A DNA stretch of 64,000 nt, from positions 248,001 through 312,000 of the forward strand of contig JAHBSI010000001.1 in assembly GCA_019639195.1 (NCBI GenBank), read 5' to 3'. Both the position numbers and the translations under genes were made by a program. Shown here one piece after another: positions 35,554-38,508 of the stretch (position 1 is its first letter; each line of letters starts with the position of its first letter). Under the pieces are notes generated by a model that was not told the origin of the DNA, searched no databases, and saw only the letters and a program-made list of their open reading frames with translations. Origin of the DNA: Acidobacteriota bacterium. GTDB taxonomy: Bacteria > Acidobacteriota > Blastocatellia > Pyrinomonadales > Pyrinomonadaceae.

Positions 35554-35880
35554 TCAAGCAAAGATCGCGGCCTGCTCCTCGAATTTGCTCTTGAGGCTGC
35601 CGCAAACAACGTCACAGAGCTTGAAGACCGTTTTATCCGAGATGCGGTAGTAGACGTTGGTCCCGACCTGTCGCCGCGAGACAAGATCCTCGTCCTGAAG
35701 GACGCGCAGATGCTTGCTAACGTTCGGCTGTGTCGAGGACACGGCCTCGGTCAATTCGTTAACGCTCGCCTCGCCGTTCTTTAGAACCTGCAGTATCTGC
35801 AGGCGCATCGGTTCGGCAAGAACCTTGAATCGAGAGGCGACCAGTATTAAGGCTTCGGGTGACATTGATGTTCTATTCAT
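35554..35880 (-). CDS. ArsR-family repressor of the sulfane-sulfur operon
   Basis: The 108-residue protein shows LAEPMRLQILQVLKNGE, the recognition-helix segment TQPNVSKHLRVLQDE and the wing QVGTNVYYRIS. Two cysteines, C89 and C93 (LCDVVC), sit in the C-terminal helix and could act as a thiol sensor or metal site; this differs from the Cys pair of BigR/SqrR. It is divergent from the rhodanese operon and shares its promoter region, in which a palindrome lies between -35 and -10. Repression by binding this palindrome, relieved by reactive sulfur, is inferred. Confidence 0.85.
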   Translation of the reverse strand: MNRTSMSPEALILVASRFKVLAEPMRLQILQVLKNGEASVNELTEAVSSTQPNVSKHLRVLQDEDLVSRRQVGTNVYYRISDKTVFKLCDVVCGSLKSKFEEQAAIFA

Positions 35881-35942: not shown

Positions 35943-36494
35943 ATGATCAAACAAGCAACAGTACAGGAAATAAATTCTTTGCTAAGCGGCGATGGTGAAT
36001 GTCAGGTGATCGACGTACGGGAGTTCTCTGAGTTTAACAGCGAGAGGATCGCCGAGGCCAAGTTGATGCCGCTCTCGAATTTTGAGAGGCATGCGGCCGA
36101 TATCGACCATTCAAAGCCCGTGTATCTGATGTGCCGCTCGGGGAACCGCGCAACAAAGGCCGCCGAGCGGCTTGCCGCAAAAGGCTTTACGGACATTCAC
36201 GTAATCAAGGGCGGAATGCAGGCGTGGGCAGCCGCGGATCTTCCCGTCGTGATCGGAGAATCAAAGGTCTGGTCGCTCGAACGACAGGTCCGCTTCACGG
36301 CGGGGATCCTGATCCTGACGAGCGTCATTCTCGGCTTCGCGGTATCACAATATTTCTTTATAGTTGCCGGGCTCCTCGGCGCGGGGCTCACCTTCGCCGG
36401 AGCGACAGATTGGTGCGGAATGGCGATGGTCCTGGCAAGAATGCCGTGGAACAAAGCGCGCGGCAACGCGTGCTGTAATGTGGAGGCAAGCTAA
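35943..36494 (+). CDS. Rhodanese fused to a DUF2892 membrane domain
   Basis: Residues 1-110 are a rhodanese domain with the catalytic C64 in LMCRSGNRA and the CH2-type D-V-R-E-F-S-E-F start. Residues about 118-175 form a DUF2892 unit with two TM helices and the conserved DWCGMAMVLARMPWN end. Rhodanese transfers sulfane sulfur; the DUF2892 tail anchors it to the inner membrane. It is first in an operon with the persulfide dioxygenase (TAATG overlap). Cys residues near the C-terminus (CC) may be lipid- or metal-related, but this is open. Confidence 0.9.
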   Translation: MIKQATVQEINSLLSGDGECQVIDVREFSEFNSERIAEAKLMPLSNFERHAADIDHSKPVYLMCRSGNRATKAAERLAAKGFTDIHVIKGGMQAWAAADLPVVIGESKVWSLERQVRFTAGILILTSVILGFAVSQYFFIVAGLLGAGLTFAGATDWCGMAMVLARMPWNKARGNACCNVEAS

Positions 36495-37870
36495 TGCATT
36501 TCAAACAATTCTATCTCGGATGTCTTTCGCATGCGTCGTACTATCTTGGGTCGGACGGCGAAGCCGCTATCATCGACCCTCAGCGTGACGTCCAACAATA
36601 CCTGGACGAAGCGACCGCCGACGGCGCAAAGATCAAATACATCATAGAGACACATTCACATGCTGATTTTGTGAGCGGGCATAAAGAGCTCGCCGCAAGG
36701 ACCGGTGCACAGATCGTCTTTGGGCAAAAGGCCGAAACCGGCTTTGAAGCACTTAAGGTAAAAGACGGCGATATGTTAAATGTCGGACATATTTGCTTAC
36801 GCGTATATGAAACGCCGGGACATACACCCGAAGGCATTAGCATCCTTGCAACCGCGAATGGCGAACCTGACAGGCTCTTTACCGGCGACACGCTGTTCGT
36901 CGGCGACGTTGGGCGTCCAGATCTTGTTGGATCTAAAGGTTTTACTGCTGACCAAATGGCCGGAATGCTTTACGATTCTCTGTATGAGAAGATCCTGCCG
37001 CTCGGCGATGAGACCCTAGTTTTCCCTGCGCATGGCGCAGGAAGCCTTTGCGGACGTTCGCTTTCCAAAGAAACCTTTTCAACGCTCGGCGAGCAGCGAA
37101 AATTCAATTACGCTCTCCAGCCAATGACGAAAGACGAGTTCGTCCGTATCGTAACGGCGGATCAGCCGCCGGCACCCGCCTACTTTGCCGAAAGTGCTGC
37201 AAAGAACCTTGCGGGTGCGTCGGCACTTTCTGAGATACCTGAGCCCAGGCAGCTCTCTGCTGAAGAGGCGGCAGCCTTCGACGGCGTTGTTATCGATGTG
37301 CGTTCCGTCGCCGAATATGGCGAAGGGCATATTCAAAATTCGATCAATATCGGCCTGGGCGGACAGTTTGCGTCATGGACGGGCCAAATGATCCCGGTTG
37401 GGACCCCAATTGCGGTGGCTGCTGCGAATCGATCGCAGGTCGAGGAGGCCGTTATGCGCCTCGCCCGCGTCGGGTTTGAGACCGCATCGAATTTCGTCAT
37501 TCTCGACAAAACTTCGCACTTGAAGGCAACGCCGCAGGTTTCGGTTGAGGCAGCGGCAAGGTTCGTGGCCGATAATCCGAATGCTCAGCTTATTGACGTG
37601 CGACGGCCCGCGGAATTCAACGCGGAGCATGCAAAAGGAGCTCTAAATATACCTCTCGATACCCTTTTGCGAGCGATCGACCGTATCGACCCGAACCGGC
37701 CGACTTTCGTGATCTGCCAGAGCGGCTATCGTTCAAGTCTTGCAAGCGGTATGCTTGAGAATGCCGGCGTGAAGGACCTAAGCAACATCACGGGCGGCAC
37801 AAAAGCGTGGATCGACGCGGGCCTGGAAACTGAGTCCGCGGTCGCTGCCACTGCTTGTGACAGGAGGTAA
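36494..37870 (+). CDS. MBL-fold persulfide dioxygenase with two rhodanese domains
   Basis: Residues 1-240 are an ETHE1/BLH-like metallo-hydrolase: H54, H56, D58 and H63 in THSHADFVSGH, H108 in PGHTPEG and D130 in FTGDTLF. Such enzymes oxidise glutathione persulfide to sulfite. Two rhodanese domains follow. The first (about 262-350) lacks the catalytic Cys (AAANRS instead), so it is probably structural; the second (about 360-450) has C408 in VICQSGYRS. The gene overlaps its upstream neighbour by one base. A CNC-like fusion of oxygenase and sulfurtransferase in one chain is inferred to couple sulfur steps. Confidence 0.92.
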   Translation: MHFKQFYLGCLSHASYYLGSDGEAAIIDPQRDVQQYLDEATADGAKIKYIIETHSHADFVSGHKELAARTGAQIVFGQKAETGFEALKVKDGDMLNVGHICLRVYETPGHTPEGISILATANGEPDRLFTGDTLFVGDVGRPDLVGSKGFTADQMAGMLYDSLYEKILPLGDETLVFPAHGAGSLCGRSLSKETFSTLGEQRKFNYALQPMTKDEFVRIVTADQPPAPAYFAESAAKNLAGASALSEIPEPRQLSAEEAAAFDGVVIDVRSVAEYGEGHIQNSINIGLGGQFASWTGQMIPVGTPIAVAAANRSQVEEAVMRLARVGFETASNFVILDKTSHLKATPQVSVEAAARFVADNPNAQLIDVRRPAEFNAEHAKGALNIPLDTLLRAIDRIDPNRPTFVICQSGYRSSLASGMLENAGVKDLSNITGGTKAWIDAGLETESAVAATACDRR

Positions 37871-37875
37871 GACGA

Positions 37876-38298
37876 ATGAAAAAGCTCTTGATACTCGCGG
37901 CCTTTGCGCTTGCGATCGCTGCATGCAACGAAGCACGGACGCCGCAGACACCGGTTGCGGCCAAGGCCCTGACAATTACGGATATGTCGCCGATCGAAGC
38001 TCGGCCCGGCACTGAGCAGCCCGGTTCGCAGTTCATTGATGTTCGAACCGAAGCGGAATTTGCTGGCGAACACGCTAAAGGCGCGCAGAATATTCCGCTC
38101 GACACACTCGAACAGAGGTCGTCAACTTTGAAAAAAGACGAGCCGGTTTACGTGATCTGTGAAACGGGACGACGCTCGCTTGCGGCCTCAGAAATGCTCG
38201 AGAAGGAAGGATTTACGCGCATTATTAATATTACCGGCGGCACACGTGCCTGGGCCGATGCGGATCTTCCAATGGTCGAGCCGGCCGCGGCGAAGTAG
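37876..38298 (+). CDS. Lipoprotein rhodanese
   Basis: The 140-residue protein has a lipobox AIAAC with C17 as lipid site, so it is likely exported and membrane-anchored. A rhodanese domain (about 35-135) carries catalytic C95 in VICETGRRS. It starts 5 bp after the dioxygenase stop. It would handle sulfane sulfur in the periplasm, complementing the cytoplasmic and membrane rhodaneses upstream. Confidence 0.9.
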   Translation: MKKLLILAAFALAIAACNEARTPQTPVAAKALTITDMSPIEARPGTEQPGSQFIDVRTEAEFAGEHAKGAQNIPLDTLEQRSSTLKKDEPVYVICETGRRSLAASEMLEKEGFTRIINITGGTRAWADADLPMVEPAAAK

Positions 38299-38325
38299 TG
38301 CACGGATCGAAAGGGTAGGATAGCT

Positions 38326-38508
38326 ATGCGAGATCTGATCGTAATGTTATCGATAGTCGGAATTTGGTTGCTGCTGCAGCTCGTGATCCTGCCGCGGCTT
38401 GGCTTCAACACCTGAATGCGCGGAGCCTGTGACACCGGTCGGCGTCGCAAGACCACAGCATCCAATGCCGCCGCGAACACTACGGATAAAGCTGATCGAG
38501 GCAGGTGA
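38326..38508 (+). CDS. Tiny membrane ORF with in-frame TGA, candidate selenoprotein
   Basis: ATG 38326 after AGGAT (38317-38321) encodes 29 residues: a short N-terminus, one hydrophobic helix (LIVMLSIVGIWLLLQLVIL), then PRLGFNT and a TGA at 38413-38415. Reading TGA as selenocysteine continues 30 more codons to TGA 38506. The join reads N-T-(U)-M-R-G-A-C, a U-x4-C pattern, followed by a basic tail. It lies 27 bp after the lipoprotein rhodanese and within the same run. TGA is a normal stop elsewhere in this window, so readthrough is not proved; a 29-residue peptide is the alternative. Confidence 0.5.
38416..38461 (+). promoter_or_regulatory. SECIS-like stem-loop just after the TGA
   Basis: Hand folding gives AUGC/GCAU or CUGU/ACAG outer pairing, a GACACC bulge, GGUC (38437-38440) pairing with GACC (38451-38454), and a 10-nt loop starting GG. 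The apical loop begins 25 nt after the TGA, within the range of bacterial SECIS elements, and a G at loop position 1-2 fits their consensus. Strength is not computed. Confidence 0.35.

Follow-up and report, generated by a model that had tools for sequence, protein, structure and literature searches.

Evidence for a new family of tiny one-helix membrane selenoproteins, often encoded beside rhodanese genes in Acidobacteriota

RESULTS

A tiny gene with an in-frame TGA

The window (the whole 64,000-nt stretch of DNA that was analysed) contains a series of genes with rhodanese domains, followed by a very short reading frame and flanked on the other side by a divergent ArsR-type gene (Table 1). The short frame begins with an ATG at 38326, 27 nt after the stop of the lipoprotein rhodanese gene, and reads MRDLIVMLSIVGIWLLLQLVILPRLGFNT-UGA-MRGACDTGRRRKTTASNAAANTTDKADRGR-UGA. 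With its internal UGA taken as selenocysteine (Sec30), it gives 60 amino acids and ends at a TGA at 38506-38508, as read from the sequence. The order of elements in the product is one transmembrane helix, the internal UGA, M-R-G-A-C and a short tail. AlphaFold2 modelled a helix at residues 2-29 followed by a disordered tail, with a pLDDT of about 88 in residues 1-20. A sequence-only reading had described here a tiny membrane ORF with a good ribosome site, one helix, an in-frame TGA and a U-x4-C arrangement, and had proposed a possible new selenoprotein in a sulfur operon. Its coordinates and content proved right, including the probable ribosome site, and the arrangement of helix, TGA and U-x4-C was confirmed in the sequence.

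Table 1. Features of the selenoprotein gene and its upstream neighbours (positions in the window)
Feature	Position	Strand	Basis
Divergent ArsR-type gene, probably regulating the operon	35554..35880	-	By eye from translation
Rhodanese fused to YgaP-like transmembrane domain	35943..36494	+	PF00581 and PF11127
Metallo-beta-lactamase (persulfide dioxygenase-like) with rhodanese repeats	36494..37870	+	PF00753 and PF00581
Lipoprotein rhodanese, directly upstream of the selenoprotein	37876..38298	+	PF00581
Probable ribosome binding site AGGA, 5 nt before ATG	38317..38320	+	Read from sequence
Tiny selenoprotein coding region	38326..38508	+	Sequence and homologues
Single membrane-spanning helix, residues 2-29, ending in conserved ILPRLG-x-x-T motif	38329..38412	+	AlphaFold2 and conservation
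In-frame TGA read as selenocysteine (Sec30)	38413..38415	+	Homologue codon; Cys form in G187
Cys35 codon, U-x4-C, candidate resolving thiol	38428..38430	+	Cys here in 107/134 members
Bacterial SECIS-type hairpin, apical loop GGUC at 38437-38440	38428..38449	+	Fold and covariation in two independent sets

Homologues read through the TGA

In an initial scan, two Acidobacteriota contigs and one deltaproteobacterial contig were found to read on through the TGA. These three and the window member formed a four-sequence profile, which matched in 89 of 396 genomes of the same (Acidobacteriota-like) phylum; the motif G-x-x-T/G-U was read in frame in 82 of the 396. A 44-row profile (A3) was run against 395 genomes of a second, Deltaproteobacteria-type phylum and matched in 166, and relatives were present in 3 of 301 genomes of a third phylum. 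In total, about 250 other bacterial genomes carry relatives with TGA at the same codon. Among the second-phylum matches listed, all but one contain the TGA, and in the exception it lies just outside the matched span. The homologues thus do not end before the TGA but run through it, with U-x4-C conserved.

The family motif was deduced to be [IVL]LP[RK]-x-G-[VI]-x-T-U-[ML]-[SRA]-x-[SA]-C, with residues kept on both sides of U; in the A3 profile the Pro, Gly, Thr and U/C positions are invariant. Cys at +5 from Sec was found in 107 of the 134 motif-bearing members, about a fifth being without it. A minority of the own-phylum members (11/87) reads U-[AG]-V-P and has no Cys at +5. Several candidates were rejected: a Chloroflexota sequence (L020) was a chance match with no motif at the position, and five weak profile matches labelled 'none' (L097, L100, L102, L108 and L109) did not combine a transmembrane helix with the in-frame motif. 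A tblastn search of plasmids with the selenoprotein sequence gave no match.

The codon and the selenocysteine machinery

The Sec codon is TGA in all 134 motif-bearing members examined, a figure to be read with the fact that the pattern used for this collection itself required TGA. The unbiased figure is that for profile matches with any stop read through, among which TAA or TAG occurred in only four, always alongside TGA. The true terminators of the motif-bearing members were mixed (TGA/TAA/TAG, 60/39/34).

The source genome (3.2 Mb, 98.7% complete) encodes selA (538 bits), selB (390 bits), selD (359 bits) and a tRNA-Sec with anticodon UCA that scored 61.9 bits, over the Rfam cut-off. The selD gene has one in-frame TGA in the standard SelD context NCAG-U-VAK. 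From this full set, together with the TGA in selD, the source organism was deduced very probably to decode UGA as Sec elsewhere too. The genes selA, selB, selC and selD, for which the sequence-only reading had suggested looking, are thus all present in the rest of the genome. The SelD of this genome (L023, C1:712778-713701) is itself a selenoprotein, with a hairpin directly 3' of its in-frame TGA.

The distribution of selA was compared with that of the family. Within the own phylum, selA was present in 77 of 82 motif-bearing genomes versus 175 of 314 others (Fisher p 2.5e-12). Four of the five motif-bearing genomes without selA have a tRNA-Sec over the cut-off (69-78 bits), and their lack of selA is probably explained by missing contigs. 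The remaining genome, G373, has the TGA form with neither selA nor tRNA-Sec above the cut-off, probably through assembly loss. In the second phylum the split, counted by hand from two lists, was 159/166 versus 196/229 (p 5e-4), weaker and in the same direction, selA being nearly universal there.

Only one Cys form was seen, in G187 (...WVLPAMGIGTCMSGACKVP...). This 99%-complete genome gave no selA match and no tRNA-Sec scoring over the cut-off, and there is no hairpin where the SECIS would lie. The Cys-bearing homologue that the sequence-only reading expected of a selenoprotein therefore exists, in a genome that has neither selA nor a convincing tRNA-Sec.

A covarying hairpin downstream of the TGA

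A stem-loop with a GG-starting loop had been folded by hand about 25 nt after the TGA. Such a hairpin is present, beginning 12 nt after the UGA and with its apical loop GGUC at 22 nt, and it covaries in relatives; its folding energy taken alone was unexceptional, since 20 of 200 shuffles folded as well (z -1.5, not significant). An Rfam search of the 64,000-nt window gave no match.

Covariation was scored in a first set of 58 non-redundant members, drawn almost entirely from the own phylum and including L017-L019, for every possible six-pair helix (469) within 51 nt from the TGA. The best helix was 21-26/30-35 (1 = T of TGA), which scored 0.199 versus 0.060+-0.013 for shuffled columns, and the top six helices share one diagonal. 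At several positions of the stem G-C, C-G, A-T and T-A pairs interchange in this set. The same helix was again the best, of 565, in a second set of 39 non-redundant second-phylum members (0.158 versus 0.059+-0.012 shuffled). The window member is one codon shorter in the hairpin stretch, and its stem register is consequently slightly different. The family hairpin occupies the position usual for bacterial SECIS elements.

Gene neighbourhoods

At 36 of 87 own-phylum loci, rhodanese or YgaP-like sequences were found on the same strand in the 1.5 kb upstream, as against 1/87 for same-strand downstream and 0/87 for opposite-strand controls. By rank, the genus had such neighbours at 9 of 12 loci and the family at 4 of 4; beyond that family a frequent neighbour is a YgaP-like transmembrane protein that stands alone and is 60-90 residues long, for which PF11127 was confirmed in four examples. 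At five own-phylum loci (L177-L179, L182 and L188) an RND efflux operon precedes the selenoprotein gene, mostly with a YgaP-like transmembrane gene between. The ArsR-type regulator of the window has a C-terminal CDVVC motif and may control the rhodanese-selenoprotein operon as a BigR/SqrR/YgaV-like persulfide sensor.

In the second phylum, rhodanese neighbours were found at 0 of 48 loci and PF11127 neighbours at only 1 of 67. The neighbours there are diverse, with thioredoxin immediately upstream in L167 and L193 and AhpC/TSA in L200; gltX, sensor kinases and S11 peptidases were rejected as partners because they were too diverse and often on the opposite strand. The description of the locus as part of a sulfur operon therefore holds for the own phylum and does not extend to the second. 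As a clue to function, sulfur chemistry applies at the level of the clade and does not define the family. From a sulfur linkage in one phylum and none in the other, it was deduced that the family probably has a general function, which one phylum attached to sulfur-transfer genes.

DISCUSSION

Assignment of the gene as a selenoprotein

The comparison of homologues makes it very nearly certain that the tiny gene encodes a selenoprotein with its UGA read as selenocysteine. This was supported by the Sec machinery of the genome, the homologues that continue through the TGA, the covarying hairpin and the Cys form. If the codon were an ordinary stop, the product would be a membrane peptide of 29 residues, and any similarity beyond the codon would be due to chance or to another element. 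Such a one-helix peptide is plausible in itself and other genes here end in TGA, but the residues after the codon are conserved across phyla (with Cys at +5 in most members), the codon is always TGA whereas the true terminators of the same genes vary, the hairpin covaries in two independent sets, and both the selA association and the Cys form in a selA-less genome go against termination. An ordinary stop was accordingly judged very improbable. Reading of the UGA as tryptophan or by nonspecific suppression is favoured by the open frame and nothing more, and its probability is negligible: the tRNA-Sec has a UCA anticodon, selD uses UGA at the standard Sec position, and the only alternative residue seen is Cys, never Trp.

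Relation to known selenoproteins

The family is in all probability new. Pfam-A and NCBIfam (June 2026) gave only chance-level matches to 44 diverse members (best E 0.016), and none of the 119 prokaryotic selenoprotein families of a 2026 review (PMC13188914) has the one-helix architecture or LP-x-x-G-x-x-T-U-M-S-x-x-C. A text search of the literature for the motif returned unrelated words only, and otherwise general selenoprotein papers; a record that is unpublished or goes by another name may exist, as subscription papers, preprints and GenBank annotations lay outside its scope. The new family has in common with the 119 known ones UGA recoding, an in-frame SECIS hairpin, selABCD and a small redox-type motif. 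The nearest in spacing is TsoB (UxxxxU), a rhodanese/DsbD fusion whose model has about 570 positions and which gave no match to the new family. The rhodanese-like forms 1-5 of the same review likewise bring selenium and sulfane-sulfur chemistry together, but they hold Sec within a rhodanese or rhodanese-related protein, whereas here it belongs to a tiny membrane protein of its own, encoded next to rhodanese genes. YgaP-type rhodaneses with the PF11127 transmembrane domain resemble the new family as membrane proteins of sulfur-transfer operons and are often its own-phylum neighbours; by Pfam search the two are not homologous, the selenoprotein matching neither PF11127 nor PF00581.

The eukaryotic SELENOK and SELENOS are likewise small selenoproteins that cross the membrane once and have Sec outside it, toward the C terminus, a likeness of architecture only. 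Their SECIS elements lie in the 3' UTR, whereas here the element is inside the coding region of a protein of about 60 residues whose Sec is close to the membrane surface.

The family was presumably overlooked because its unrecoded frame ends at 29 codons and because searches for Sec/Cys pairs need Cys homologues. The search methods described in both the review (PMC13188914) and the deep-Sep paper (PMC12013277) rest on Cys homologues, and by its own statement deep-Sep may miss selenoproteins without them. With one Cys form seen, this family breaks the working rule of finding selenoproteins via their cysteine homologues, and the case suggests that such genes go unseen in ordinary annotation, as 29-residue frames below the threshold. 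As about a fifth of the genomes sampled in one phylum and two fifths of those in another carry the family, it may rank among the more widespread selenoproteins there.

Proposed function

Taken as a whole, a one-pass membrane selenoprotein of about 60 residues with a candidate redox or sulfur role is a highly probable explanation of the data. Codon 30 would be decoded by SelB and tRNA-Sec under the direction of the downstream hairpin, a step strongly supported by comparison. As the sequence shows, Sec sits at the membrane surface, a few residues past the helix-ending LP[RK] motif and with Cys at +5; the basic residues after the helix weakly point to a cytoplasmic location of this side. The membrane-anchored selenol could then be oxidised or sulfur-loaded by a substrate (a persulfide, sulfane sulfur, another oxidised thiol or a peroxide), form a reversible Se-S bond with the Cys at +5 and regain its reduced state through a thiol partner. 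In the own phylum the likely partners would be the products of the genes just upstream, rhodanese and YgaP-like membrane proteins; a thioredoxin gene takes that place in two Deltaproteobacteria-type loci.

A redox-relay role in general is slightly favoured. The rhodanese/YgaP linkage suggests a membrane-anchored selenol that handles sulfane sulfur or thiol redox, while sulfane sulfur in particular as the substrate is put forward tentatively. The same reserve applies to the fuller picture of widespread one-helix selenoproteins, nearly never in a Cys form, that might work with YgaP-like and rhodanese partners and provide the selenol relay in a membrane pathway for sulfane sulfur or thiol redox. 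The tie between selenium use and a membrane rhodanese/YgaP sulfur operon is a directly testable link.

Two other roles for a selenoprotein were weighed. Sec and Cys might bind a metal or metalloid, as in an efflux-pump accessory or in metal sensing, with no redox or sulfur transfer. Several own-phylum loci adjoin AcrB-type RND pump genes, some upstream genes are MerR or ArsR regulators, and metal links are common among known selenoproteins (PMC13188914). This role was nevertheless considered unlikely, as the commonest neighbour class is rhodanese or YgaP-like rather than metal genes, and the protein offers one Sec and one Cys only, the Cys being absent in a fifth of members. It is quite unlikely that the protein serves as a small subunit, structural or regulatory, in a membrane complex where UGA decoding would make the full-length form a sensor of selenium status. 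Small single-helix proteins are often subunits, the 29-residue form would span the membrane even without Sec, and neighbourhoods differ between clades; against this, no part of the protein is better conserved than the motif flanking Sec, and the finding of a Cys form where selA is absent suggests that the chalcogen side chain is what is kept, not UGA recoding.

For the selenol relay, the absence of Cys at +5 from about a fifth of members means that an intramolecular Se-S bond is not universal. A subfamily without this Cys (L066, L072, L079, L092, L110, L111 and L113-L115) reads U-[AGS]-V, mostly U-[AGS]-V-P-[DN]-P, and may work with an external thiol. Most of its members carry their own downstream hairpin. 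One second-phylum genome, G552, has two copies of the family (L120 and C25:95469-95585), with TGA in both.
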